Of a stretch of 15,300 nt of DNA, positions 347 through 14,440 are shown piece by piece. Origin of the DNA: Bacteroidota bacterium (GTDB lineage Bacteria; Bacteroidota; Bacteroidia; B-17B0; B-17BO). Where the stretch lies: contig CANHPI010000020.1 in assembly GCA_947462425.1 (NCBI GenBank), positions 1 to 15,300 on the forward strand, written 5' to 3'. Numbering within the stretch: position 1 is the stretch's first letter; each line of letters opens with the position of its first letter. Below the pieces are notes generated by a model. It saw nothing but the letters and a program-made list of their open reading frames with translations. It searched no databases and was not told where the DNA came from. A program made the translations under genes and the position numbers.

Positions 347-1753
347 TTAATCTATAATAAATATTTCGTTTTTAGAAGGAATAATAATGTTATTAAATCC
401 TTCTAAAAGTAACTTATCTCTAAACGAAATTTTAGCAGGAGGATCTCCATGCACCAAGAAAACTTTTTTAACTTTTTGCTTATCCTGACAAGACAGAAAC
501 CGAATCAATTCATTATAATCTGCATGAGCACTGTACGAATCAATGATTTCAACATCCGCATTCACATCATATTCCTCGCCAAAAATTTTTACCACTTTTT
601 GCCCTTCTCTAATTCTACCTCCTAATGAGTTTTGAGAGCAATATCCAACTACGAGTATAGTATTTTTTTGATCAGAAATATTATTTCGTAAATGATGTTT
701 AATTCGTCCGGCATCCATCATCCCAGAAGCGGAAATAATAATACAAGGTTCTTTATTGCTATTTAAATTAATGGAGTCAGCTTTTTCTCTTATATAAATC
801 AAGTTGTTAAACCCAAATGGGTCAGCATCGGTTTTTATATACGTTTGCAATTTAGCATTAAAACAATCTACGTGTTCCCTCATAATATCCGTAACATTGG
901 ATGACATTGGACTATCTACATATACTTTGATATTAGGTAATAATCCTAAATTTTTTAATTTATCTAAGATGAAAACAATTTCCTGAGTACGACCTAAACT
1001 AAAAGCCGGAATAATTAATTTACCTTTTTTTTCTACACAAGTATTTCTAACCACATTAAGTAAATGTAATTCAGCATCTTTTTCTACTTCATGTAATCGA
1101 TCTCCATAAGTTGATTCGCAAATAATATAATCAGCTTGAGGAAAAATTTCAGGATCTTTTAAAAGCATATCATCATACTTTCCAATATCTCCCGTATAAG
1201 ATAACTGTGTAATTTTATGTTCTTTATCTTTTAGTTTTAAATTAACTATCGCACTGCCGAGAATGTGTCCTGCATCTGTAAACAAAAAAGACACTTCTTC
1301 GTTTAAAGTAAACTCTGCATGATAAGGTACGGTTTTAAAATGCTTTAAACAGCGATCAACATCCTTTGAAGTGTATAAGGGTTTTAAAAGTTCTTCTCCT
1401 CTTAGTTCTCTTTTTTTATTAACGTATTCAATATCACTTTCGTGTATTTTTGCACTATCATACAACAATACTTCAACCACCACTAATGTGGGTGGGGTGC
1501 AATAAATAGAGCCTAAAAATCCTTTATTAATAAGAAGAGGTAAATTCCCTGAGTGATCAATATGAGCATGAGATAAAATAACAACATCTATTTCAGATGG
1601 ATTAAAATCGAAATAACGATTTAGTGAATCTGTTTCTTTACCCATCCCTTGGTATAAACCACAATCTAAAAGTACATTGTAACCTTTATCGGTTTTAATA
1701 ATATGTTTACTACCTGTAACAGTTTCGGTAGCACCTAAAAATTTTATTTGCAT
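347..1753 (-). CDS. MBL-fold beta-CASP RNase-like metallohydrolase
   Basis: This is a cytoplasmic metallo-beta-lactamase-fold protein with a beta-CASP domain (COG1236/YSH1 group), expected to be a zinc-dependent RNA endo- or exonuclease. From the ATG at 1753 it has 468 residues. Metal ligands are visible: HAHIDH at 62-67, H163 in DAGHILGSA, D189 in YTGDIG. The beta-CASP signatures are E213 in ESTYGD, PAFSLGRTQE, SAHADY with H410, and VHG with H435. I chose ATG 1753 because the family begins at MQIKFLGATETVTGS; the frame is open up to 1831 but that stretch is Cys-rich and unlike the family. The gene is divergent from a universal stress protein and has its own operator plus -7 box (1757-1800). 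RNA is the expected substrate by family; a specific target is unknown. Confidence 0.9.
   Translation of the reverse strand: MQIKFLGATETVTGSKHIIKTDKGYNVLLDCGLYQGMGKETDSLNRYFDFNPSEIDVVILSHAHIDHSGNLPLLINKGFLGSIYCTPPTLVVVEVLLYDSAKIHESDIEYVNKKRELRGEELLKPLYTSKDVDRCLKHFKTVPYHAEFTLNEEVSFLFTDAGHILGSAIVNLKLKDKEHKITQLSYTGDIGKYDDMLLKDPEIFPQADYIICESTYGDRLHEVEKDAELHLLNVVRNTCVEKKGKLIIPAFSLGRTQEIVFILDKLKNLGLLPNIKVYVDSPMSSNVTDIMREHVDCFNAKLQTYIKTDADPFGFNNLIYIREKADSINLNSNKEPCIIISASGMMDAGRIKHHLRNNISDQKNTILVVGYCSQNSLGGRIREGQKVVKIFGEEYDVNADVEIIDSYSAHADYNELIRFLSCQDKQKVKKVFLVHGDPPAKISFRDKLLLEGFNNIIIPSKNEIFIID
370..408. repeat. Perfect 11-bp inverted repeat (hairpin) in the 3' end of the RNase-like gene
   Basis: TTTTAGAAGGA (370-380) is the exact reverse complement of 398-408. 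Between them lies a second small dyad, AATAA-tg-TTATT (383-394). The structure lies inside the last codons of the minus-strand gene and also just downstream of the plus-strand HxlR stop codon. Neither side is followed by a clean U-tract, so it is not a textbook terminator. It may form an mRNA 3'-end hairpin for one or both convergent transcripts. Confidence 0.55.
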
Positions 1754-1756
1754 ACC

Positions 1757-1800
1757 CAAATCTAATTTACAACTATATAGTATAGAGTGATAATCATCAC
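1757..1800 (-). promoter_or_regulatory. FNR/CRP-type operator plus -7 box for the RNase-like gene
   Basis: GTGAT-AATC-ATCAC at 1787-1800 is a perfect 5+5 palindrome with a 4-bp spacer. On the minus strand it is followed after exactly 22 bp by TAGATTTG (1757-1764), a perfect Bacteroidota TAnnTTTG box. The box ends only three bases before the ATG at 1753, so the transcript would start at or next to the start codon. No separate -33 TTTG is seen; the operator occupies that area, as in class II activation. The same operator could also act on the divergent universal stress gene at 1866, but no box lies 22 bp away in that direction. Confidence 0.7.
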
Positions 1801-1865
1801 AGTATAAACTGATAAAAGTTACTTGAAACAAAAACTTAGTTTAATATATTTAATTAAAAAAATAT

Positions 1866-2696
1866 ATGAATACCATACTAGTTCCTATTGATTTTTCTGA
1901 AACATCAGAAAACGCATTAAACTTCGCAACAAGTTTAGCAAACTATTTATCGGCAAATTTACTGTTGATTCATGTAAATACTCTGCCTGTATATAATAAT
2001 GAATATGAACTTATAACCTATACAATAAAAGATAGTATTGAAACGGGCTTAGAATTACTAAAAGAAAGAGCGTTAAAACTAAAAAAAGACAATTTACTAA
2101 TTGGCGATGTAACATATTATGCAGAAGTTGGAGAATTAGACGCCACTATCACAGAATTTATTTCAAAAAAAAGTATTGATTTAATTGTTATGGGAATAAC
2201 TGGTCATAGCACCAAAATTGGTCAAACACTATTTGGAAGCAACTCACTTACAATATCAAGAAAAAGCAGAGTGCCTGTTTTTATTATACCTAAAAACTAC
2301 AGATATAAAAAAATAGAAAATATTGCGTATGCTTGCGAATACGATGAAAATATTATAGAGCAAACAGGTTTAATTCAGGTTAAAAATATGATCGACATGT
2401 TTAACGCTAATTTAAATGTATTGCATGTAATACCTAATAATCATTTAATAAATCAATCAGAAGCTGAAACTGATTTATATGTTGAACAAAAATTTGAAAA
2501 TACAAATCACAAAACATTTATTTTAACAGAAAACAAAGTAAGCACAGCACTCTTGGATTTTATTGATAAACATCAAATAGATTTAATTATTATTGAGCCA
2601 AAAAAACACACATTTTTTCATAAGATTTTTTATCCTAGTTCTACAAAAGAAATAGCTTTTAATAGTCCGATACCTATATTAACAATTCATAGCTAA
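1866..2696 (+). CDS. Universal stress protein, tandem UspA domains
   Basis: This is a cytoplasmic universal stress protein of 276 residues with two UspA domains (about 1-142 and 148-276). Domain 1 begins MNTILVPIDFSETS with the nucleotide-contacting Asp at D9, and carries a G-x2-G-x10-G-S loop (G110, G113, G124, S125), close to the G-2x-G-9x-G(S/T) motif of ATP-binding members but one residue longer. Domain 2 (IENIAYACEYDE onward) lacks the glycine loop and is probably the degenerate partner, as is common in two-domain forms. The gene is divergent from the RNase-like gene and followed 49 bp later by the DUF1003 gene. The operator at 1787-1800 lies 65 bp upstream of its ATG. Role by family: survival under starvation, oxygen or redox stress; the exact function is not known. 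Confidence 0.93.
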   Translation: MNTILVPIDFSETSENALNFATSLANYLSANLLLIHVNTLPVYNNEYELITYTIKDSIETGLELLKERALKLKKDNLLIGDVTYYAEVGELDATITEFISKKSIDLIVMGITGHSTKIGQTLFGSNSLTISRKSRVPVFIIPKNYRYKKIENIAYACEYDENIIEQTGLIQVKNMIDMFNANLNVLHVIPNNHLINQSEAETDLYVEQKFENTNHKTFILTENKVSTALLDFIDKHQIDLIIIEPKKHTFFHKIFYPSSTKEIAFNSPIPILTIHS

Positions 2697-2745
2697 CTGC
2701 AAACAAGGTTTTAATTTCTAAAACATACTTGTGGGTTAAAATACT

Positions 2746-3441
2746 ATGGATATAATTTGCGCTATCACCAGAAAGAAATGCGATCAATCATCGGCAAACA
2801 GATTAGATACTATTTCTTTGCCTCTGAATAAATTAATTAAAATTGATTTCCCGAAATTAAAAGATGATGAATATGTTTCGTTAGAACAAATCACAAAATA
2901 TCGTAAAAAGTATTTAAATAATTTAATTGAAAATGAACACGGAGAAATTGATATACTAGAAAAGAAAGTAATAGATTCAATTTCGAGAAATCAAATTTTA
3001 TCAGAAAATATTGAATCAGGTATAAGCGAGGAATTAACCATAGGCGAAAAAATTGCAGATAAAATTGCCATATTTGGAGGAAGTTGGATATTTATTATTT
3101 CTTTTTTTACATTTATTATAATTTGGATTGTCATAAATATTATTGCATTATCATCCCATAAATTTGATCCATATCCTTTTATTTTGCTAAATCTAATTTT
3201 ATCTTGTTTAGCTTCTATTCAGGCTCCAATAATTATGATGAGTCAAAATAGAAAAGAGCAGAAAGATAGAAAACGAAGTGAAAATGATTATAAAATAAAT
3301 TTAAAAGCCGAATTAGAAATTCAATTATTGCATGAGAAAATAGATCATTTAATGGTACATCAAAATAAAAAATTACTAGAAATTCAACAAATACAAATTG
3401 ATTTTTTTGAAGATACTTTAAAGCAGATTAAAAGTGGGTAA
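2746..3441 (+). CDS. DUF1003 family membrane protein
   Basis: This protein has 231 residues and belongs to the DUF1003 family, inner-membrane proteins of unknown function. The N-terminal 100 residues are soluble and helical, with two cysteines near the start (C5 and C12) that recall the N-terminal Cys pair seen in family members. Two membrane segments follow, at about 110-135 and 143-165. Between and after them is the family core FDPYPFILLNLILS, then QAPIIMMSQNRKEQKDR and the charged helical tail with LKAELEIQLLHEKIDHL. It follows the universal stress gene by 49 bp on the same strand, probably as one transcript. The tail looks like a cytoplasmic amphipathic or coiled-coil helix. Its role can only be inferred from the stress-gene neighbourhood. 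Confidence 0.9.
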   Translation: MDIICAITRKKCDQSSANRLDTISLPLNKLIKIDFPKLKDDEYVSLEQITKYRKKYLNNLIENEHGEIDILEKKVIDSISRNQILSENIESGISEELTIGEKIADKIAIFGGSWIFIISFFTFIIIWIVINIIALSSHKFDPYPFILLNLILSCLASIQAPIIMMSQNRKEQKDRKRSENDYKINLKAELEIQLLHEKIDHLMVHQNKKLLEIQQIQIDFFEDTLKQIKSG

Positions 3442-3814
3442 TACAAAAAATGATGAAATAATTATAAATGCACAATTAAAAATTATTAAATCGAATTAGA
3501 AATAAAATTTTGAACATTTTTAATATGATTGTACATTTCCAAAAAGCATTCTTAGTAGTTTTTTATGATGAATAGTGCGGATCATGTAAGACAATGGTTT
3601 CAATTTTAAAAGAACTGAAACACAATTAAGTGTTAATCAGCTATCATAAAATCGACTTAGATAAAAATTCAGAGGTTCAAAAATCTATCAAATAAGAAAC
3701 GTTCCACCTTAATACTAATTAAATATGTGAACCTGTTTGGTGTGTTATTTCAACTAATGAATTAGTAAAGATTATTAATCCGTTTCAATAAATATAATAT
3801 ATCAATACATTGAC
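3442..3814. other. Intergenic region without a recognisable gene
   Basis: This 373-bp AT-rich stretch lies between the ends of two convergent genes. All six frames are broken by stops. One plus-strand frame (3594-3791) contains coding-like pieces, such as EPVWCVISTNELVKIINPFQ near its end, but has three internal TAA codons, no more than chance predicts here. I see no operator, tRNA or strong terminator. It may hold the remains of a decayed gene, or nothing. Confidence 0.5.
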
Positions 3815-4198
3815 CTAGAGATGTTTTGCAGCAAAATTTTTAAACTCTGACCTTAACTCATTAAAATTCTTTTCAAAAGCTTCAATTGATTCTTTTTCAC
3901 TCGAGTGGTAAGGAATATTACGATGATCAACTGCAACTGGGTTTTTAATCACCTCACTTTTCAGAGCATCTTCATCCACATTAATTGTATGGGAAATTTC
4001 ATCAATATTATTCTGTTGAACAATAAATTGATTTTGAAAATGTTCAACTTGAGCTAAAACTTCCTTCTCTTTATATTTAGTGGCGATTTGACTTAATCGA
4101 TTTTTTAAAATTGAAATTTCATCATCATAAAATTTCAATTTATTTAACCATTCGTTATTCTCAGCGTGCTGGTTATAAAGTTTATTTTCTTTTTTCAT
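3815..4198 (-). CDS. Small coiled-coil protein of unknown function
   Basis: I do not recognise a named family for this 127-residue protein. It is highly charged, without cysteines, signal peptide or membrane segments. Residues about 12-70 (NNEWLNKLKFYDDEISILKN and the following ISQIATKY- and HFQNQF-type helices) have a heptad-like pattern typical of a coiled coil. A middle segment around VAVDHRNIP breaks the helices, and a final amphipathic helix runs to the C-terminus. It resembles conserved hypothetical proteins of Bacteroidota that lie beside universal stress genes (from memory, not a search). The ATG at 4198 is preceded in frame by a TAA and a 22-codon small ORF (4208-4276). A likely promoter is at 4489-4531, giving a long leader. 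A structural or stress-related role is inference from context only. Confidence 0.75.
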   Translation of the reverse strand: MKKENKLYNQHAENNEWLNKLKFYDDEISILKNRLSQIATKYKEKEVLAQVEHFQNQFIVQQNNIDEISHTINVDEDALKSEVIKNPVAVDHRNIPYHSSEKESIEAFEKNFNELRSEFKNFAAKHL

Positions 4199-4339
4199 AT
4201 GTAGATATTATTGTTTTTTAGTTGTCATATGGTTTAGCCAGTTTATCTTCATTTGTGTTTGTGTTTTAGCAAACATGGCTATTTCATATTTAGATATTTA
4301 TTGTTATTTAGTTATTATGTTGTTAAGCCAATTTTTCTT
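4193..4339. repeat. Imperfect direct repeat with 90-bp period spanning the start of the 127-residue gene
   Basis: Copy 1 (4193-4249) and copy 2 (4282-4339) align over 58 columns with 9 mismatches and one gap by hand count, and share TTTCATAT, TAGATA, TTATTGTT, TTTAGTT and AGCCA blocks. The offset is 89 bp at the CAT of the start codon and 90 bp after the one-base gap, so most of the unit is in frame. Copy 1 contains the real start codon of the minus-strand gene; copy 2 contains an equivalent ATG followed by AAA and TAG. Confidence 0.7.
4208..4276 (-). other. Candidate 22-codon leader ORF upstream of the 127-residue gene
   Basis: On the minus strand an ATG at 4276 opens a short frame (MFAKTQTQMKINWLNHMTTK, then KQ and stop) that ends with TAA at 4208-4210. 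Three more codons in the same frame lead to the ATG of the downstream gene at 4198. It lies in the spacer and repeat copy 1 of the 90-bp repeat. It could be a translated leader peptide, a former N-terminal extension cut off by a stop, or chance. Confidence 0.3.
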
Positions 4340-4373
4340 ATCCACTTAGCTATGGGGATTTGAGGGGCTTTAA

Positions 4374-4419
4374 AGAAATTTAATTGTTTCAATTAAAAAT
4401 AAATGCCTTTTAAATTTCT
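4374..4419. repeat. Nested AT-rich inverted repeats
   Basis: AGAAATTTAA (4374-4383) is the reverse complement of 4410-4419. Inside, TTTAATTG (4379-4386) pairs with CAATTAAA (4390-4397) around a TTT loop. The two hairpins share bases and cannot both form. They lie in the 402-bp divergent intergenic region 4199-4600, within the expected leader of the minus-strand gene. Confidence 0.4.
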
Positions 4420-4488
4420 GGTTTTGTAAATCAGGAATAGAGTTTGATTTTAACCGCACTGTTGATTTCATAATACATAAATTTTTTA

Positions 4489-4531
4489 TAAAAGTAGTTG
4501 GATAAAATAAAAAATTATTGATAAAAATCAT
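4489..4531 (-). promoter_or_regulatory. FNR-type operator with candidate -7 box towards the 127-residue gene
   Basis: TTGAT-AAAA-ATCAT at 4518-4531 matches the FNR consensus TTGAT-N4-ATCAA at nine of ten defined bases. On the minus strand TACTTTTA (4489-4496; one mismatch to TAnnTTTG) follows after 21 bp. The leader to the ATG at 4198 would be nearly 290 nt. The box is weaker than those at the other sites, so the operator is the surer part. Confidence 0.5.
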
Positions 4532-4539
4532 TTTTAATA

Positions 4540-4583
4540 CTGATTGATATCAGACAATAAAAGGTAAATAAAAACCACATTTG
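4540..4583 (+). promoter_or_regulatory. FNR/CRP-type operator plus -7 box for the 120-residue gene
   Basis: CTGAT-TGAT-ATCAG at 4540-4553 is a perfect 5+5 palindrome with a 4-bp spacer. After exactly 22 bp comes CACATTTG (4576-4583), one mismatch from TAnnTTTG, and the ATG follows 17 bp later at 4601. Its centre is 22 bp from that of the operator at 4518-4531, about two helical turns, so two dimers would bind the same face of the DNA. Confidence 0.65.
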
Positions 4584-4600
4584 CATGCATACAAAATAAC

Positions 4601-4963
4601 ATGACAACAATTATTAAAATAGAAAATGAAGTAAAAGTTTCAGAATTAAAGAACGCATTTAATAATCAATTTCCGTTTTTAAAAATTGAATTTTTCAAAA
4701 AGTCTCACAAGCAATTGCAGGGTTCATATAAAAAAGATATTATTACGAAGGACTTTATAATTAAATCTAATCAGCAGGAAAATACAATTACTTATGGTGA
4801 GGACACGTCTGTTTCTGAATTCGAAAAACAGTTTGCTGATAAAGTAAAGCTTAACGTTCAAGTATTTAGGAAATCAGGCAAAACATGGCTAGAAACAACT
4901 TTTACTGATAGTTGGTCGTTGAAAAAACAAAATCAAGAAGGAATGGAATTAAGCCAATTATAA
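4601..4963 (+). CDS. Small protein of unknown function
   Basis: I do not recognise a named family for this 120-residue soluble protein. It has no cysteines, signal peptide or membrane segments. The first 45 residues alternate strand and helix (TTIIKIENEVKVSELKNAFN, then FPFLKIEFF), and the C-terminal half has a helix (SVSEFEKQFADKV) followed by the strand-like LNVQVFRKSG-KTWLETTFTDSW and a short polar tail. The layout suggests a small alpha/beta fold. Similar proteins with an FRKSG-x-x-W-x-E-T motif are familiar to me from Bacteroidota stress clusters, but that is memory and not a search. Its promoter has the operator and box at 4540-4583, so it is probably under the same control as the RNase-like and DoxX genes. 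Confidence 0.75.
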   Translation: MTTIIKIENEVKVSELKNAFNNQFPFLKIEFFKKSHKQLQGSYKKDIITKDFIIKSNQQENTITYGEDTSVSEFEKQFADKVKLNVQVFRKSGKTWLETTFTDSWSLKKQNQEGMELSQL

Positions 4964-4971
4964 TTCATTCC
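4940..4971. repeat. Inverted repeat over the stop codon of the 120-residue gene
   Basis: GGAATG-G-AATTA (4940-4951) pairs with TAATT-CATTCC (4961-4971) with one bulged G and a 9-base loop; the TAA stop is in the right arm. No U-tract follows on the plus strand, so it is more likely an mRNA 3'-end hairpin than an intrinsic terminator. Confidence 0.4.
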
Positions 4972-5079
4972 ATACTATAATTACTAGCTCTTTCATATAA
5001 TAAAACTACTCTACTATCCTTCTACAGGGTGTCTGGTTTAACGCATTTTCAAATCCCATAAAACAATTTAAACCCATTC

Positions 5080-5868
5080 CTATTTATGAATTGATAAAAC
5101 AGGTATTTTTGAAGATAGAATAATTTTTTTAGAATTGCTTTGAATAAACAAGTTTTGAAAAATAGAATAGTGGTGACTGAGCATCATAATAATATCTACA
5201 TTTGATTTTTTAGCATAAGAAATAATACCTGAGTAAAAATCTTTGGCTTTAATATTTGTGATAGAAGTTTGTTTGTATCTAATTAAATTCTCATTTAATT
5301 CATCTTTAGATTCTATATGAACAAATTCAGTATCAACTCCAAGAAATTTTATCGTTGAGTTTATACGCTTGGAAAGTCCTGAACTAATTGATTCATTATT
5401 ATCTATTGCAACCAACATTTTTTTTATAGAATGCTGCATGTATTTTAATGGAACCGTAATAATAGGACAAGATATGTTACCTGTTAAATCAGCACTGGTA
5501 GTACCATAAATAAATTTTTGAATCTTACTTTTAGTTTCAACCCCTAAAACCACTAAACTAATTTTGTTTTGCGCTGATAACTTTCCTACTCTATTTGTAA
5601 TACCATTATAGGTTAACTCAATATCAAATTTTATTTTAGGATATAACTTTGAAAAATGAGCTCTAAGAGTTTCCATTTTTCTTTCTGCGCCTTTACTAAA
5701 TTCGTCGCCAGATATAAAAACTAAACCAGAATTAGTATGAATTAAAGGGGTAGTTAACGCATGAAACAACAAAATTTTTGACTTCGTTTTTTTCGCAATC
5801 TCAATCGCGTAATTGATTGTATTATTGCATGATTTTTTAAAATCAACACCTACTAGTATGGTTTTCAT
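5080..5868 (-). CDS. Universal stress protein, tandem UspA domains, degenerate nucleotide loop
   Basis: This is a 262-residue universal stress protein with two UspA domains (about 1-141 and 149-262). Domain 1 starts MKTILVGVDFKKSC with D9 in the nucleotide-contacting place; domain 2 starts KKMLVAIDNNESI. The ATP loop of domain 1 keeps the first and third glycines (G109, G122) but has Thr at 112 for the second glycine and TT after the third. Domain 2 lacks the loop. ATP binding is thus less certain than in the protein at 1866-2696. I start at ATG 5868; a TTG codon directly upstream is also open. The gene lies 36 bp downstream of doxX on the same strand and is probably cotranscribed from the operator at 6350-6363. 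A 12-bp palindrome, CATCAATTGATG (5866-5877), covers the start codon. Confidence 0.9.
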   Translation of the reverse strand: MKTILVGVDFKKSCNNTINYAIEIAKKTKSKILLFHALTTPLIHTNSGLVFISGDEFSKGAERKMETLRAHFSKLYPKIKFDIELTYNGITNRVGKLSAQNKISLVVLGVETKSKIQKFIYGTTSADLTGNISCPIITVPLKYMQHSIKKMLVAIDNNESISSGLSKRINSTIKFLGVDTEFVHIESKDELNENLIRYKQTSITNIKAKDFYSGIISYAKKSNVDIIMMLSHHYSIFQNLFIQSNSKKIILSSKIPVLSIHK

Positions 5869-5904
5869 CAATTGATGTTTTAACGATGTAAATAAATATT
5901 AATT

Positions 5905-6315
5905 TTAAAGAAGTGTATCAATTCCAAAATAAAAATAATTAGAAAGAATTAAGATTAATGTTATTAATATAACGCGTGGGAATACATGATGTAAATCCCA
6001 AACTGGTTTTAAAAACGAAAATGCCAGACCAACTATAATCAAGTCTAATGCAATAAATAGATTAACAATGTTATGAAATAATCCAAGTATTAATAATATA
6101 CCACCAAAGAACTCGGTAATAGAAGTAAAATAAGAGGTAAAAACAATTATGAAATAGGGAACATGTTTTCGCTCAGCATCTTCTTTAAATGTAATGATTA
6201 CATTTTTTAGCTTAACAATAAATAGTTTATCATAACCTTGAAAAGCAATTAATATTCCTAAGAAACATCGAAGAAATAATTCGGCTATTTTTAAATTAAA
6301 ATCACTTTGATCCAT
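5905..6315 (-). CDS. DoxX-family integral membrane protein
   Basis: This is a 136-residue inner-membrane protein of the DoxX family. The family signature is at the N-terminus: LKIAELFLRCFLGILIAFQGYDKL, where the first membrane helix holds Arg and the F-Q-G-Y-D-K stretch. Further membrane segments run at about 52-82 (two helices around TSITEFFGGILLILGLF), 83-102 and 115-133, making four helices. DoxX proteins are linked to respiratory or redox membrane complexes, but most members have no proven reaction. The gene is the first of a probable two-gene unit with the universal stress gene downstream. Its promoter has the FNR/CRP-type operator, with the -7-like box only four bases before the ATG. 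Confidence 0.88.
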   Translation of the reverse strand: MDQSDFNLKIAELFLRCFLGILIAFQGYDKLFIVKLKNVIITFKEDAERKHVPYFIIVFTSYFTSITEFFGGILLILGLFHNIVNLFIALDLIIVGLAFSFLKPVWDLHHVFPRVILITLILILSNYFYFGIDTLL

Positions 6316-6319
6316 GCAT

Positions 6320-6363
6320 CTAAATTAGATGACTTGCCATGTATACTATATGATAAGAATCAC
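6320..6363 (-). promoter_or_regulatory. FNR/CRP-type operator plus -7 box for doxX and the downstream usp gene
   Basis: ATGAT-AAGA-ATCAC (6350-6363) contains the core TGAT-N4-ATCA. On the minus strand TAATTTAG (6320-6327), one mismatch from TAnnTTTG, follows after exactly 22 bp. The box ends four bases before the ATG at 6315, so transcription would start near or at the start codon. The geometry matches the sites at 1787, 4540 and 9179. Confidence 0.68.
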
Positions 6364-6519
6364 TTTTATTGTTGATTTTTGTTTACAATATAATTAAATA
6401 ACAATACTACTTTAACTCTCTCTAATTGACTTGTTCTAAATAATGTTTCAAAAAGTAAAAGTTAAACTTTATTTATAGTTGTAAGAGAAGGTGCTACTTA
6501 ATGTATATAACCTAAATTA

Positions 6520-7479
6520 TTATTTTAAAACGGCCTTCTTTTGTTTTTGAAAATACTTTTTAAAGGGCCAAGCGTATTTTAATGCTTCCATGTTTTCATT
6601 AAAACCTCCTGCGGCATCTTTAATGTTAATTAAACTCTTATTTAAATTATTAACCATTACCGTGTCATTAAGCAGAGCAGCTATTGCGCCATTGCCCTCG
6701 TTTATTTTTTTGGAAACTGATTTAAAATCTCCCGATATGACTGATAGAGAATCGCTGATGGATTGAATATTAACCATCGTTTGATTCAACTTTTTCGAAA
6801 ATAAAGAGTCTGTCAATATTTTACCGGCTGCACCTTTTCCTGACTTCACATCTTTAACAATGGTATTCAAATCTGCGGCAATTAAGGCGGCTCTTTTACC
6901 TGTAACATTTATATGTGAAATAGCTTCCTTCACATTTTCTGCAACGGTTGTATCCATCAAAATACTCCACACGGTATTTGGTTTAGTTAAACGACTGGCA
7001 ATTTCTTTTATGTCTTCCGTTATATTTTTAATATTTTGATTTGAAACATCAAGTGTTCTCATCATGGCATCTGTTCCAATAGGATTGGTTGAACCAATAA
7101 CATCGCCATCTTCGACACTTGGAGAACTCACATCAGACGATGTAATATTTATTAATTTATTCCCCATCAATCCATCAGTTCCAACATTAGCAGTAGCATT
7201 TTTTTTTATAAACACTTGCACCTTATCTTCAATTACCATAATTACATTAACCGTTGAATCATTTATAATTTCAACTTTTTTAACTGTACCAACATCAATT
7301 CCTGTAAACCTTACGTTATTACCTGGCATTAATCCATTTATGTTTTTAAATTTTGCTTGAAGTTCAAACGTAGCACCAAAAAAGTTTTGCCTATCACCAA
7401 TTAAGTATAATGCAATAATAAGTAAGGCTGTTCCCACTAAAACAAATACTCCTACTTTAACATTTTTAGAAATTTCCAT
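6520..7479 (-). CDS. mlaD: MlaD-like MCE-domain protein, lipid transport substrate-binding subunit
   Basis: This is the MCE-domain subunit of an Mla-type ABC transporter that moves phospholipid between the inner and outer membranes. Its 319 residues comprise a short cytoplasmic start, a single membrane anchor at about 9-27, and a periplasmic MCE domain at about 38-115 with the typical NINGLMPGNNVRFTGIDVGTV and the DGLMGNKLINIT segment. A long helical C-terminal region (about 140-300) follows, longer than in Escherichia coli MlaD (about 180 residues) but usual for Bacteroidota and actinobacterial-type MCE proteins; it may form part of a lipid tunnel. It is the last gene of mlaE-mlaF-mlaD, 8 bp behind mlaF. 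MlaB and MlaC are not in the window. Confidence 0.92.
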   Translation of the reverse strand: MEISKNVKVGVFVLVGTALLIIALYLIGDRQNFFGATFELQAKFKNINGLMPGNNVRFTGIDVGTVKKVEIINDSTVNVIMVIEDKVQVFIKKNATANVGTDGLMGNKLINITSSDVSSPSVEDGDVIGSTNPIGTDAMMRTLDVSNQNIKNITEDIKEIASRLTKPNTVWSILMDTTVAENVKEAISHINVTGKRAALIAADLNTIVKDVKSGKGAAGKILTDSLFSKKLNQTMVNIQSISDSLSVISGDFKSVSKKINEGNGAIAALLNDTVMVNNLNKSLINIKDAAGGFNENMEALKYAWPFKKYFQKQKKAVLK

Positions 7480-7487
7480 AACTACAA

Positions 7488-8264
7488 TTACTCAAAAAAC
7501 TGTTTAACTTTTAAATCTGCTGATTTTTTTAATTCATCCAAAGTTCCGGTAGCATAGCATTTTCCATCAATTAACATCACTATCCGATCTGCAACAATTT
7601 TCACACAATTAATATCATGAGAAATAATAATAGACGATGTTTTATATTTTTTTTTAATATCATTCATTAAATTACTAATCTCCTTGCCCGTTATGGGATC
7701 AAGCCCTGTTGTTGGTTCATCGTATAAAATAATTTCAGGTTTGAGTATTAGTGTTCGGGCTAAAGCAATTCTCTTCCTCATTCCACCTGACAATTCAGCG
7801 GGCATCATGTTAACTGTATTTACTAAACCCACATTATTGAGGGCTTCCAGAATTAAAATATCTTCTTCACTTTTACTTGTTTTAAACCAATGTCTTCTTA
7901 AGGGAAATTCTAAATTTTCACGAACAGTCATTGAATCATATAAAGCATTACTTTGAAATAAAAATCCCACTTTAACGCGTAACTTATCTAATTCTGTTGA
8001 GTTCAAGTGAGGTACTTCTTTTTTAAATACAGTAATAGAGCCCTTATCAGGCTTCATTAAACCAATAATACATTTAATTAAAACTGATTTACCGGAACCT
8101 GACTTCCCTAAAACAACCACATTTTCACCAGGATATAAATTAAAATTAAAATCAATAAGCACTTCATTACTTCCAAACGCTTTATACAAATTTTTTACCT
8201 CAATAACAGGCTTACTGTTATCTAAAATTTCTGAAGTCGTATTTGTATTTATGCTTCTGCTCAT
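7488..8264 (-). CDS. mlaF: MlaF-like ABC transporter ATPase
   Basis: This is the cytoplasmic ATPase of the Mla phospholipid transporter. It has 258 residues from the ATG at 8264. Visible motifs are Walker A GKSGSGKS (53-60), Q-loop Q104 in FLFQSNALYD, ABC signature LSGGMRKR (158-165), Walker B IILYDE with catalytic E183, D-loop GLDP and switch H216 in IISHD. FQSNALYDSMTVRENLEFPL is typical of the MlaF/Mkl group rather than of importers. The stop codon of mlaE and this ATG overlap in TGATG, which points to translational coupling and favours this ATG over the in-frame TTG directly before it. The ATPase works with MlaE (membrane) and MlaD (periplasmic MCE). Confidence 0.94.
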   Translation of the reverse strand: MSRSINTNTTSEILDNSKPVIEVKNLYKAFGSNEVLIDFNFNLYPGENVVVLGKSGSGKSVLIKCIIGLMKPDKGSITVFKKEVPHLNSTELDKLRVKVGFLFQSNALYDSMTVRENLEFPLRRHWFKTSKSEEDILILEALNNVGLVNTVNMMPAELSGGMRKRIALARTLILKPEIILYDEPTTGLDPITGKEISNLMNDIKKKYKTSSIIISHDINCVKIVADRIVMLIDGKCYATGTLDELKKSADLKVKQFFE

Positions 8265-9031
8265 CAATTTAAATTTAAAACGTCGGTAATTTGAACAGCT
8301 AATAAATCGATCACAAAAACCAGTAGGGATGAAATTACAACTGCTGAATTTGCAGACTGCCCGACACCTTCTGTTCCTTTTTTAGAATTAAACCCTTTAT
8401 AACATCCAATTATTCCTATTATAAATCCAAAAAAATATGTTTTCAAAATTGATGGCATTAAATCACTATAAACTACAGTATCAAATACCTGACTCCAAAA
8501 CAAATCCCAACTTACAATACCGCGAATGTTAGCGCCTAAATAAGCACCGTAAAGAGAAATAGCATCTGCCACTGTTACTAATACAGGAATCATTAAAGTT
8601 GTTGCCATTACTCTAGTGACCACTAAATACTTGTATGGATTTGTACCCGAAACATCCATGGCATCAATTTGTTCTGTAACTTTCATAGATCCTAACTCAG
8701 CACCAATGCCAGAACCGATTTTTCCAGCACAAATTAGTGCGGTAATTACAGGAGCAATTTCTCTGATTAATGATACCGAAACCATTTTAGGTAACCAAGC
8801 TTCTGCGCCAAATTCAACAAGTGTTGGACGCGATTGAATGGTAATAACCAAACCCATAATAAATGCTGTAATAGCTACTAAACCAATTGATTTATTACCT
8901 ATATAAAAACATTGCCTTAAAAACTCACTAAATTCAAATCGTGGTTTAAATAATTCAACAAAAAATTTACCGGCAAAACGCGTAACGTCTCCCACTTCAT
9001 CAAAAAAAGTATTTAGAGCATTAAACTTCAT
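8264..9031 (-). CDS. mlaE: MlaE-like ABC transporter permease
   Basis: This is the inner-membrane permease of the Mla phospholipid transporter, 255 residues. An amphipathic N-terminal region (1-45) is followed by about five membrane helices. Family marks are SIGLVAITAFIMGLVITIQ, the conserved cytoplasmic stretch from IREIAPVITALICAGKIGSG to AELGSMKVTEQIDAMDV, and YKYLVVTRVMA. The length fits the family. It is the first gene of the operon; its TGA overlaps the mlaF ATG by one base. The promoter with an FNR/CRP-type operator lies at 9149-9192, leaving a leader of roughly 110 nt. I see no second permease or cognate MlaC or MlaA nearby. Confidence 0.93.
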   Translation of the reverse strand: MKFNALNTFFDEVGDVTRFAGKFFVELFKPRFEFSEFLRQCFYIGNKSIGLVAITAFIMGLVITIQSRPTLVEFGAEAWLPKMVSVSLIREIAPVITALICAGKIGSGIGAELGSMKVTEQIDAMDVSGTNPYKYLVVTRVMATTLMIPVLVTVADAISLYGAYLGANIRGIVSWDLFWSQVFDTVVYSDLMPSILKTYFFGFIIGIIGCYKGFNSKKGTEGVGQSANSAVVISSLLVFVIDLLAVQITDVLNLN

Positions 9032-9352
9032 TGGTTAATTATATACTTACCATTAGATTTAAATTTGTATTCACAAAAAATTATAATATTTACTAAAATT
9101 AATTAAGCCTCATTTCTTCTCTTTCAGATAGAACAAAAATCGCTCAAACAAAATTATAAGGTGTAGCAAGTTTATAATATGATTTAAATCATACCTGATA
9201 CTGATTTCTAATAGTAGAATTTGTGGATATAGTTATTTGCAAAAAAAGTAATACATTAAATTTTAAAAACAAATAACTTTTAAACTGATACCAAGCCAAA
9301 GGCATGATATATTAGATTTACAAAGATTTATGCTTTATAATTTTTACTAATT
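9032..9352. other. Intergenic region holding the mlaE promoter, no gene seen
   Basis: This 321-bp AT-rich region separates algH (ending at 9353, minus) from mlaE (starting at 9031, minus). It holds the operator and -7 box at 9149-9192. I find no open frame with a credible start and no tRNA. On the plus strand, TAGAATTTG (9215-9223) lies 22 bp from the other edge of the same operator, but no gene follows it. Confidence 0.55.
9149..9192 (-). promoter_or_regulatory. mlaE: FNR/CRP-type operator plus -7 box for mlaE-mlaF-mlaD
   Basis: ATGAT-TTAA-ATCAT (9179-9192) is a perfect palindrome that extends to TATGATTTAAATCATA with one further pair of bases (9178-9193). On the minus strand a perfect TAnnTTTG box, TAATTTTG (9149-9156), follows after exactly 22 bp. 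The operator centre is 29.5 bp from the first T of the box, which places it near -41 of the expected start, the class II activator position. Confidence 0.7.
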
Positions 9353-10698: not shown

Positions 10699-11742
10699 AT
10701 GAACAAACAAGAAAAAATAAAAAACTTTGATCCAAACTCTGTTGGTGATGTTAATGCTAACATGTTTGGTTTACCATTTACGGTAGCAGAATCTGAAACA
10801 GTAATTATTCCTGTACCATGGGAGGTAACCGTTAGTTACGGTGGTGGAACTATTGATGGTCCGGAACAAATATTTGATGCTTCATTTCAGGTTGATTTAT
10901 TTGATCCCATTGTACAAGATGCCTGGAAAATGGGAATTGCTATGGATGATGTTAATCAGTACTTGAAAGATAAAAGTGAAATTTATCGTCCGGTTGCCGA
11001 AATTATAATTGACAGACAATGCAATGGTGAACCATCTTCAGAAATTTCTGAAATAAAAGACATTAACAAAGTGTGCGAAGAAATGAATGCCTGGGTAAAA
11101 CAACGCTCGCTACATTTTTTGAAACAAAATAAAACAGTTGGTTTGATTGGCGGTGATCACTCCACTCCATTAGGTATGATTGATGCTTTGGGAGAACACA
11201 TAGGTGAGTTTGCTATTTTACAAATTGACGCACATGCCGATTTAAGAAATGCATATGAAGGTTTTGAATATTCACATGCTTCTATTATGTACAATGCATT
11301 AAAAAGACATAGTGTACAAAAATTAGTGCAAGTGGGTATTAGAGATTATTGCCAAGCTGAATTAGATATAATTAATAACTCAAAAGGACGAGTAAAAACA
11401 TTTTTTGACAGAGACATCAAACAAGATCAATACAAAGGAAAATCATGGGATGCAATTTGCCAAGAAATTGTAGCTGAGTTGCCTCAAAAAATATATTTGA
11501 GTTTTGATATTGATGGCTTAGATCCAAAATTATGTCCGGGAACAGGAACACCAGTAGCTGGAGGGTTTGAAACTGATCAGGTTTTGTATTTATTAGAACA
11601 AGTGGTTGCAGCAGGAAAAACGTTTGTAGCATTTGATATTAATGAAGTAGGAGGCGAAGATGAATGGAACGCCAATGTCGCGTCTCGTTTATTATACCGC
11701 ATTGCAAACCTGGTAGCACATAGCCAAGGAAAGAAAGCTTAA
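10699..11742 (+). CDS. Agmatinase/arginase-family ureohydrolase
   Basis: This is a 347-residue manganese ureohydrolase that cleaves a guanidino group to release urea. The metal-binding motifs are complete: GGDHST with H154, DAHADLR with D177, H179 and D181, and SFDIDGLDP with D270, D272 and D275. An N-terminal extension of about 30 residues precedes the core, and a charged insert around 105-125 (QCNGEPSSEISEIKD) is unlike the short SpeB form. Candidate substrates are agmatine (polyamine pathway), arginine or guanidinobutyrate; the family alone does not decide, and no arginine decarboxylase lies nearby. Agmatinase-like proteins of this kind are common in Bacteroidota. It is a single gene with a strong terminator 21 bp after its stop codon. 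Confidence 0.9.
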   Translation: MNKQEKIKNFDPNSVGDVNANMFGLPFTVAESETVIIPVPWEVTVSYGGGTIDGPEQIFDASFQVDLFDPIVQDAWKMGIAMDDVNQYLKDKSEIYRPVAEIIIDRQCNGEPSSEISEIKDINKVCEEMNAWVKQRSLHFLKQNKTVGLIGGDHSTPLGMIDALGEHIGEFAILQIDAHADLRNAYEGFEYSHASIMYNALKRHSVQKLVQVGIRDYCQAELDIINNSKGRVKTFFDRDIKQDQYKGKSWDAICQEIVAELPQKIYLSFDIDGLDPKLCPGTGTPVAGGFETDQVLYLLEQVVAAGKTFVAFDINEVGGEDEWNANVASRLLYRIANLVAHSQGKKA

Positions 11743-13182: not shown

Positions 13183-13539
13183 TTATTCTACCGTTCCTTT
13201 TGCCTGAGCTATACTCAGTTTATCTAAAACCTTATCATAAATAACTTTAAACTTCTTTGGGTGCCTTGTGTAATAAACCATCGTAGAATCAAACTTTAGT
13301 TTATCAACATGATGTTCCTCTAATGGGTTGAAAAGATAAGTTGAATCAAATTTCTCTCCCGAAACATTCTTTATGTTAATTCCCGAAGCACCTTCCGCCA
13401 AATAAGCATCGGTTAATATATTTATTAATTGCTCTTCCGTTAACAGATTTTCAGGCACGTTATCGTTATCGTCGTTCTTTGGAGCACACGAAAAAAGTAA
13501 AACAAAAACAATAAATAGTTTAATTAGGTTTATATACAT
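13183..13539 (-). CDS. DUF4296 lipoprotein
   Basis: This is a 118-residue lipoprotein of the DUF4296 family, found in Bacteroidota and of unknown function. The signal peptide (MYINLIKLFIVFVLLF) ends in a lipobox-like LFSC with the lipidated Cys at 18, so the mature protein is anchored to a membrane in the envelope. The body has the family features: PENLLTEEQLINILTDAYLAEGA, the FDSTYLF stretch and the YYTRHPKKFKVIYDKVLDKL region. I start at ATG 13539 because it gives a proper signal peptide; the open frame extends to 13629 but that part lies wholly inside the regulator gene. The start overlaps the end of the MerR-type gene by 20 bp, which suggests translational coupling. Confidence 0.85.
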   Translation of the reverse strand: MYINLIKLFIVFVLLFSCAPKNDDNDNVPENLLTEEQLINILTDAYLAEGASGINIKNVSGEKFDSTYLFNPLEEHHVDKLKFDSTMVYYTRHPKKFKVIYDKVLDKLSIAQAKGTVE

Positions 13540-14440
13540 TAAATGCAAAGTTAACACTATGCAGCACATTTTTAAACTGTTCGTGCGATTCGAACAAAAT
13601 AACATTTTCTGGCAATGTAATTGGCTCATTTGGTATAAAAAACTGACGTCCAGATACCATAATAGTTGAGTTTTTGAATGAACTAGCTAGATTATTTAAA
13701 TATTCCTGAGTAGAAATGCCTTCCATTCGACTAGTAAAAGTGGTGACAATTATGTCGGGATGCGCTATATTGGTTACTGAAAACAAATCATTAAAAGGAA
13801 CTGATTGTCCTATGTATAAGCATTTATGTCCCTTTGATTTAATCAAAAAATTGCAATATAGTAGCCCTAATTCGTGCAATTCGTTAGATGGTAAATACAA
13901 TAAAAACGTTTTTGGATTTGTTAAAGGCTCAGGAAATAGTCCGTCGATTCCAACAATGATTTTTTGACGAACTAAATGTGTAATAAAATGTTCTTGTAGA
14001 GGATTTACAATACCAACTTGCCACATGTTTCCAATTTGTCGCATAAATGGAAATATAATTTTTTCAACGGTGTTTTCAAATCCAAAATGAATAATACAGT
14101 TTGAAATTATTTTTTCAAACCTAGCCTCATTCATTTCCATCATACAAAGCACCAAATTGTCTATTTGATCACTTTCTTTATTATAATTATTTAAAATGGA
14201 TTGAACTTGTTTAACAAGTTCCTGGTCGGGAAGTTTGGCAATTTTTGATATTTTAAAGCCATTATTATTTAATAATGAAATATTTAAAATACGTTTTAAA
14301 TCTTCTGATGTATAGTAGCGTATATTAGTATCAGTTCGCTCTGGCTTTAAAATGCTATAACGCTGTTCCCAAATACGTAACGTATGAGCCTTTATTCCTG
14401 AAAGCCTTTCTAAATCTTTGATAGCGTATTGAGTAGGCAT
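13520..14440 (-). CDS. MerR-family regulator with cobalamin-binding domain (CarH/LitR-like)
   Basis: This is a 306-residue transcription factor joining a MerR winged-helix domain (about 4-72; YAIKDLERLSGIKAHTLRIW) to a four-helix bundle (about 85-170) and a Rossmann-type B12-binding domain (about 176-300). Two CarH marks are present: W140-x9-E150-H151 in the bundle (MWQVGIVNPLQEH), and E187-L-H189-E-L-G, where H189 fits the lower cobalt ligand (H177 in Thermus CarH). CarH/LitR proteins use adenosylcobalamin as a light sensor and repress genes such as those for carotenoids in the dark. Here Gln141 stands where CarH has H132, the second ligand of the light state. It is the first gene of a unit with the lipoprotein and amidohydrolase. 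A dyad upstream (14486-14506) may be its operator. I am sure of the domains, less of light sensing. Confidence 0.88.
   Translation of the reverse strand: MPTQYAIKDLERLSGIKAHTLRIWEQRYSILKPERTDTNIRYYTSEDLKRILNISLLNNNGFKISKIAKLPDQELVKQVQSILNNYNKESDQIDNLVLCMMEMNEARFEKIISNCIIHFGFENTVEKIIFPFMRQIGNMWQVGIVNPLQEHFITHLVRQKIIVGIDGLFPEPLTNPKTFLLYLPSNELHELGLLYCNFLIKSKGHKCLYIGQSVPFNDLFSVTNIAHPDIIVTTFTSRMEGISTQEYLNNLASSFKNSTIMVSGRQFFIPNEPITLPENVILFESHEQFKNVLHSVNFAFNVYKPN

Follow-up and report, generated by a model that had tools for sequence, protein, structure and literature searches.

In a 15,300-nucleotide stretch of the genome of a Bacteroidota bacterium (contig CANHPI010000020.1, assembly GCA_947462425.1; the whole stretch is referred to here as the window), palindromic operators of the CRP/FNR kind are arranged as tandem pairs at four promoters, and the unit is the pair rather than the lone palindrome. 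The geometry of these pairs, their recurrence in other Bacteroidota and their association with the gene for a fused response regulator can be read directly from the sequences. The tandem sites are probably bound, as two dimers, by an activator that resembles a fusion of FixJ and FixK and is driven by a FixL-like kinase. Each such promoter would consist of two TGAY-N4-RTCA operators with centres 22 bp, or about two helical turns, apart, at positions -41.5 and -63.5 of a sigma-A type promoter. A PAS histidine kinase encoded next to the regulator would phosphorylate it, the regulator comprising a receiver, a cyclic nucleotide (cNMP)-binding fold and a Crp-type helix-turn-helix (HTH). Once active, it would bind one face of the DNA as two dimers, the one nearer the promoter occupying the class II position, and would activate transcription. 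It is predicted to control the kinase-regulator genes themselves, together with a set of low-oxygen or stress genes that includes those for the cbb3 oxidase, a P-type ATPase, universal stress proteins (Usps), DoxX, Mla and an MBL RNase.

Operator pairs and promoter boxes in the window

The motif TGAT-N4-ATCA occurs seven times in the window, where 0.53 copies are expected, and none of 200 shuffled sequences reached seven. Five copies, at 1788, 4519, 4541, 6351 and 9180, are intergenic, as an earlier note on this DNA had reported, and that observation is confirmed as far above chance; intergenic DNA makes up 2,327 of the 15,300 bases by the gene calls used here. Two further copies, absent from the list in that note, lie within genes, at 2564 in the gene for the universal stress protein Usp1 and at 10947 in an arginase-like gene. 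The longest mechanical open reading frame of the MBL gene, from a TTG at 1831, would cover the 1788 site. This site is counted as intergenic because a start at 1753, MQIKFLGATETVTG, agrees with the start of the relative in locus L005, MKVKFIGATESVTG.

The four promoters carry TAnnTTTG-like boxes, TAGATTTG, CACATTTG, TAATTTAG and TAATTTTG, and the gap between the operator 12-mer and the box is 23 bp in all four cases, each read in its own direction. At this offset 22 of 24 box letters fit TAnnTTTG, and the runner-up among 45 offsets fits 14 of 24. The earlier note had proposed a fixed distance of 22 bp; the constancy holds, and the figure of 22 had been counted from a 14-mer. A 22-bp gap from the 12-mer was tried and set aside, as it gave seven matches in ten genomes (two with the reversed control), against 19 at 23 bp (none with the control). 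In Flavobacterium psychrophilum, according to the portion of that article available, the TAnnTTTG box spans -12 to -5 (PMC9723704). Together with the 23-bp gap, this gives an operator centre of -41.5, which is the class II position and close to the -41 suggested previously; the value derives from the position of the box, and the promoter starts are predictions from sequence.

Each of the four proximal sites is paired with a second operator exactly 22 bp farther from the promoter, at 1810, 4519, 6373 and 9202, with 1, 0, 2 and 2 mismatches, respectively, to TGAY-N4-RTCA. The mismatches sum to 5 at 22 bp, compared with 14 at the next best distance and a mean of 20.6 over distances of 12-60 bp (P ~3e-10, for that one distance). 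The consensus is better given as TGAY-N4-RTCA than as TGAT-N4-ATCA, and the 4519/4541 pair is the rule, not the exception. It is very improbable that the palindromes are chance features of A+T-rich intergenic DNA or that they are repressor sites. Such an explanation could appeal to the fact that just eight bases are fixed and that two copies are intragenic, but chance does not account for the shuffles, the genome counts with their controls or the peaks in spacing and box offset. Repressor sites tolerate varied positions, whereas a centre at -41.5, at a fixed distance from the -7 box, is activator geometry.

Upstream of the MBL RNase-like gene, the proximal operator TGATGATTATCA (1788..1799, minus strand, centre ~-41.5) lies 23 bp from the -7 box TAGATTTG (1757..1764, minus strand) and 22 bp from the second operator TGATAAAAGTTA (1810..1821, one mismatch). 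On the Usp1 side, a box-like TATATTTA (1845..1852, plus strand, five of six letters) stands 23 bp from the 1810 operator. For this reason the 1788/1810 pair may serve both genes, with the 1810 operator as the proximal and the 1788 operator as the distal site for Usp1. In front of the gene for a protein of 120 amino acids (aa), the distal operator TGATAAAAATCA (4519..4530, no mismatches) lies 22 bp from the proximal one, TGATTGATATCA (4541..4552, plus strand, a TGAT-N4-ATCA match), which is followed after 23 bp by the box-like CACATTTG (4576..4583, plus strand, five of six letters). A possible divergent box, TACTTTTA (4489..4496, minus strand), is weak, with five of six letters at 22 bp from the 4519 operator; it reads towards the gene for a 127-aa protein, ~300 bp off.

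The DoxX-Usp2 promoter has a proximal operator matching TGAT-N4-ATCA, TGATTCTTATCA (6351..6362, minus strand), a degenerate distal operator 22 bp away, TGATTTTTGTTT (6373..6384, two mismatches), and a box-like TAATTTAG (6320..6327, minus strand, five of six letters) that follows the operator after 23 bp and leaves 4 nt to the DoxX ATG. Similarly, the mlaEFD promoter combines the TGAT-N4-ATCA match TGATTTAAATCA (9180..9191, minus strand) with a degenerate distal operator 22 bp away, TGATTTCTAATA (9202..9213, two mismatches), and with the box TAATTTTG (9149..9156, minus strand), 23 bp from the 9180 operator. Divergent use of the 6351/6373 and 9180/9202 pairs was rejected: no called gene reads away on the far side, and the best box there has four of six letters.

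The MBL box (1753-1764 region) ends 3 nt before the ATG and the DoxX box (6315-6327 region) 4 nt before it, and the corresponding mRNAs would be leaderless or nearly so. Leaderless transcripts were considered as a rule of the regulon and discarded. In relatives, only three of 65 cases, two of them the same gene, have a start 4 nt after the box, and the rest have at least 14 nt.

Tandem sites and the fused regulator across Bacteroidota

Scanning with MlaE as the query identified 80 loci, almost all of them titled as Bacteroidota. In the 400 bp before the MlaE match (31,604 bases), TGAT-N4-ATCA occurs 14 times, in 13 of the 80 loci, compared with 96 times in 1,323,884 bases elsewhere, and is thus ~6 times denser. 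The tandem pattern, with at most one mismatch, yielded 250 sites in 38 genomes and was present in 34 of them; the reversed pattern yielded 9, and a 26-bp spacing 22. These genomes were chosen via their MlaE loci, some for having an mlaE site, so that their site density does not represent the phylum fairly. Spacing was examined in 26 regions (470,542 bases) picked for holding or adjoining the regulator gene, which show geometry rather than frequency. Perfect sites had a partner, one mismatch being allowed in it, at 22 bp 51 times and at 23 bp 13 times, and no other distance between 12 and 60 bp was counted more than three times; a pair of perfect sites is scored twice in these counts. Nearly all of the pairs (38 of 39) are extragenic. 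In 52 gene-facing directions, exact TAnnTTTG boxes were found 22 bp (four), 23 bp (15), 24 bp (one) and 53 bp (one) from the pair, with none elsewhere in the range 0-54, so that 20 of the 21 exact boxes in relatives lie at 22-24 bp. The tandem operators before mlaE in the Flavobacteriaceae loci L034, L041 and L223 (the last two being the same gene) are spaced by 23 bp, not 22.

A second, tool-drawn set of 118 genomes from the phylum was divided by the presence of the regulator, defined as a full-length relative at E<=1e-60. There are 111 tandem sites in the 17 genomes that have the regulator (reversed control 3) and 75 in the 101 that have no match (reversed control 19); the latter figure is above chance, although sites are far rarer there. 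At least three sites are present in 13 of the 17 regulator genomes and in seven of the 101 others (rank test P 1.4e-7, or 4.7e-7 minus the query genome; these tests treat the genomes as independent samples although they are related, with kinship uncorrected). At least one site occurs in 59 of the 118 genomes. Together with the 34 of 38 above, and with sites before cbb3-oxidase genes in some of these genomes, this makes the "local" regulon of the earlier note too narrow. The genome-scale check of motif and box that it had proposed, carried out here in relatives, bears out recurrence above the reversed control and replaces the single palindrome as the unit.

The regulator is also physically close to the sites. 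Three of the five sites of G001, the nearest relative, are on a 13-kb contig with the regulator gene, three of six in G002 are within 6 kb of it, and five of 12 in G003 are within 30 kb. In the MlaE scan, the five leading loci (G001-G005) all have a full-length regulator, with 68-100% identity to the query, which is that of G005; in G006, among the ten genomes first searched, the sole match has only 35% identity. In 23 of 24 regions the kinase gene is the immediate neighbour of the regulator gene. G022, G026, G028 and G071 each carry two full-length genes for the fused regulator.

The regulator of L005 has PF00027, PF13545 and PF00325 over their cut-offs, which assigns its output to the CRP/FNR superfamily. 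The acidic pocket, phospho-Asp, Thr/Ser and Lys of a two-component receiver are kept in all 24 aligned regulators, as are a Glu and an Arg in the recognition helix. An N-terminal cysteine cluster of the [4Fe-4S] type is found in none of the 24, in which the N-terminus is the receiver domain; 13 of the proteins have one cysteine, nine have two, one has three and one has five. In addition, the full TTGAT-N4-ATCAA is found at none of the five intergenic sites, and the single perfect copy of this 14-mer in the window (2563-2576) is within the Usp1 gene. Of the proposed FNR/CRP-family activator, the CRP/FNR kind of site therefore stands, and FNR itself is ruled out by the missing cysteine cluster and the outer operator bases that are not kept. 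Contacts of the cAMP type are likewise not apparent: by eye, and in an alignment that does not include CRP itself, Tyr, Phe or Ile follows the FxG-type motif in 24 of 24, not Glu, and there is no Arg-Ser pair. We take Glu72 and Arg82 to be the cAMP contact residues of CRP.

The kinase is likely FixL-like and oxygen- or redox-sensing, since its PAS domain matches FixL and DosP structures and the heme His column is kept. The closest solved structure is a multi-sensor kinase (10jx), followed by FixL and DosP. The PAS domain matched 17 PDB sequences; 11 bear the name FixL or DosP, and another two (1v9y and 1s66 yddU, the latter presumably DosP) are entries for heme-PAS domains. At the alignment column of the FixL heme His, 23 of 24 kinases have His, and the His of the L005 kinase aligns with that of FixL 1d06 and 1dp6, which we take to be the heme ligand. 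It is possible, if somewhat doubtful, that the fused regulator binds the sites and that its signal is not oxygen, with a heme-less PAS sensing another redox or energy signal. The FixL Arg column, presumably the position of the distal Arg that contacts O2, counts in that direction and against an oxygen sensor: it is Arg in just 11 of 24 kinases, Met in four, Lys in two and other residues in the remainder. Predicted targets such as Hsp20, CBS, Usp, PaaA_PaaC and secreted or unknown proteins also speak for this reading. This reading has to contend with the near-invariant His, with closest solved PAS domains that are mostly heme sensors, and with cbb3 oxidase, hydrogenase and hemerythrin genes among the targets. 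Whether the whole constitutes a widespread Bacteroidota oxygen circuit seems to us evenly balanced. In such a circuit, with FixJ and FixK fused, a heme-PAS kinase would act on a receiver-CRP dimer pair at -41.5/-63.5 in a near-invariant 22-bp phase, phosphorylation rather than a ligand would control pairing on the DNA, and the window would be one branch of the regulon. If so, its cluster would link cbb3 respiration with RNA turnover, lipid transport and Usps.

The fused regulator could instead be a mere neighbour, with the sites bound by a one-component CRP/FNR protein of ~220-250 aa, for example one related to PDB 2gau; we regard this as unlikely. Such paralogues are present in many of the same genomes, CRP/FNR proteins generally read TGA-N6-TCA-like sites, and the genomes that lack the fused regulator exceed the reversed control (75 sites compared with 19, in 101 genomes). 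However, G020, G024 and G029, all Flavobacterium, lack the fused regulator while encoding a one-domain paralogue (34-36% over the Crp part), and their tandem sites number only 1, 2 and 0, which disfavours the paralogue as the binder. Furthermore, in G001, G002 and G003 the sites cluster round the fused regulator gene, and tandem sites also precede its kinase.

Several observations weigh against the fused regulator as the protein that reads these sites. The window's own regulator was not seen, the 15,300 nt being the sole sequence of this organism examined; the organism presumably carries the kinase-regulator pair outside the window. In the window, half of the distal operators (two of four) carry two mismatches. 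Two of the 17 regulator genomes (G141 and G145) have no tandem sites, and seven of the 101 others (G039, G055, G114, G115, G149, G151 and G153) have at least three. Because those 101 genomes hold 75 sites against 19 in the control, seven of them with at least three, another binder or missed regulators must explain part of these sites. The contrast is weaker in the 38-genome set, where 29 genomes with the regulator have a mean of 7.6 sites and the nine without it have 3, 9, 2, 2, 1, 0, 2, 0 and 12 (P 0.017). The two of these nine with the most sites, G011 (nine) and G038 (12), lack a full-length regulator; judged by the number and size of their contigs, their assemblies look fragmentary, and G038 has a partial match. 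G007 (MlaE 85% identical) has no regulator match and one perfect tandem site; the contigs seen are short, and its assembly may be incomplete. Finally, no kinase was found beside the regulator in L218.

Genes of the predicted regulon

The G001 contig comes from the nearest relative (MlaE 90% identical). Its 13 kb encode the regulator, the kinase, the MBL RNase (79% identical to that of the window), Usp1 (56%), a patatin, a P-type ATPase, ccoNO and ccoP. The ccoNO product is over its NCBIfam cut-off and that of ccoP is below its own; the ATPase is named ccoI from its gene position. Perfect tandem operators precede the kinase gene, the ATPase gene and ccoNO. The MBL/Usp1 operator pair is placed as in the window, with one half perfect and two mismatches in the other. 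Given the content of this contig, the window cluster appears to be a rearranged portion of a regulon to which, elsewhere, the high-affinity oxidase also belongs.

Two other loci, L004 and L005, cluster many of the window genes, namely those for the 127-aa protein, DoxX, Usp2, the 120-aa protein, MlaEFD, Usp1 and the MBL RNase. Mid-cluster are a histidine kinase (PAS, HisKA, HATPase) and a response regulator (receiver, cNMP-binding, Crp HTH). Tandem operators lie upstream of the gene for a 107- or 109-aa protein, in the interval that separates the 127-aa protein gene from that for DoxX, and upstream of mlaE; in L004, the last of these precedes a 120-aa-type protein located in front of mlaE.

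The genes inferred to be under the window's operators comprise, from left to right, the 468-aa MBL/beta-CASP/RMMBL RNase-like protein (347..1753, minus strand), Usp1 (1866..2696, plus strand) with a DUF1003 protein that is probably co-transcribed with it (2746..3441, plus strand), the 120-aa protein (4601..4963, plus strand), DoxX, a membrane protein (5905..6315, minus strand), with Usp2 behind it (5080..5868, minus strand), and the mlaE-mlaF-mlaD operon (6520..9031, minus strand). The 127-aa protein (3815..4198, minus strand) belongs to no Pfam family, nor does the 120-aa protein, which has no PDB relative at E<=0.01. These two Pfam-less proteins are recurrent regulon neighbours or targets in L004, L005 and L200. 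Against NCBIfam, the MBL/beta-CASP protein scores 399 bits for Cas14 (type VII CRISPR; cut-off 800) and 302 for aCPSF1 (cut-off 580), both far below the curated thresholds. A putative MerR-type regulator with a long C-terminal part (13520-14440) resembles, by eye, B12-binding light or redox regulators.

Conservation was counted as a tandem operator upstream of relatives of the window genes, with at most one mismatch unless stated. It is complete for the 127-aa protein (four of four relatives examined) and for DoxX (three of three examined, with no mismatches), and the one DUF1003 relative (L199) has a tandem operator of its own, with one mismatch. For mlaE, 12 of the 37 rows having upstream DNA carry one (16 at up to two mismatches), or 11 of 35 genes once duplicates fetched twice (L015/L205 and L041/L223) are merged. 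The 120-aa protein follows with three of nine rows, two of which are the same gene (two of eight genes). None was counted for the MBL protein (0 of 3, one at two mismatches), Usp1 (0 of 2, both at two mismatches) or the arginase (0 of 2), and PdxH, YqgE and the amidohydrolase had no relative among the scanned loci at the thresholds used. A regulon covering the RNase-like protein, the Usps, DoxX, the two small proteins and the Mla transporter, as previously proposed, is supported overall.

In relatives, tandem operators precede ccoNO, ccoI, mlaE, the kinase gene, DoxX and the genes for the 120- and 127-aa proteins. Another 19 targets were scanned with Pfam, and 13 had a family over the cut-off and six had none; several of them depend on a box with five of six letters. 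The assigned families are a D-2-hydroxyacid dehydrogenase, Hsp20, pyruvate phosphate dikinase, CBS (two), hemerythrin, PaaA_PaaC, the ethylbenzene-dehydrogenase type (two), the small subunit of NiFe hydrogenase, Usp, a secreted protein with a sorting tail and carbonic anhydrase.

Relation to known systems

Oxygen limitation induces the cbb3 oxidase in Flavobacterium psychrophilum, and a word search of the available main text of that article gave neither "Crp" nor "Fnr" (PMC9723704). For CRP/FNR homologues in metagenome-assembled genomes of Flavobacteriales and Saprospiraceae, carbon sensing has been predicted from a position near MalR, as far as the accessible part of that source extends (PMC8510549). 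Among the literature matches listed, which mostly exclude subscription journals, none describes the motif, the tandem geometry or the fused regulator for Bacteroidota, and none gives a regulator of low-oxygen genes in environmental members of the phylum. Response regulators with a CRP output are listed in domain censuses. The rule of two TGAY-N4-RTCA operators 22 bp apart and 23 bp before TAnnTTTG permits regulon prediction in many Bacteroidota genomes. It also supplies a context for unknown small proteins and, in a phylum whose promoter is unusual, is a clear example of class II geometry.

Parts of this arrangement have counterparts in several well-known systems. The DosR dormancy regulon is a similar two-component, hypoxia-type response with several Usp genes, but DosR is a NarL-type regulator with a different motif. 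At class III CRP promoters of E. coli, one dimer is near -41.5 and a second is upstream on the same helix face, with spacings that vary between promoters; here 22 or 23 bp dominates, and the cassette residues are unlike the cAMP-binding ones of CRP. FNR and Anr act at class II promoters with a TGA...TCA palindrome at -41.5 and have anaerobic or microaerobic targets, as seems to be the case here. In contrast to FNR and Anr, the candidate regulator has no Fe-S cysteines, the outer bases of TTGAT-N4-ATCAA are not retained, there are two operators, and the -7 box and sigma factor are different.

The FixL-FixJ-FixK system of Alphaproteobacteria, in the portion of its description available, shares with the present one a FixL-related PAS kinase, control of cco genes, a CRP/FNR-type regulator free of Fe-S cysteines and feedback on itself (PMC4999443). 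FixJ and FixK are separate there (PMC4999443), whereas here the receiver and the Crp output are fused in one protein, and the tandem operators and the TAnnTTTG promoter differ as well. The system would thus work like FixL-FixJ-FixK and like FNR class II promoters yet belong to neither, because its FixJ and FixK equivalents are fused and the features of FNR fail.

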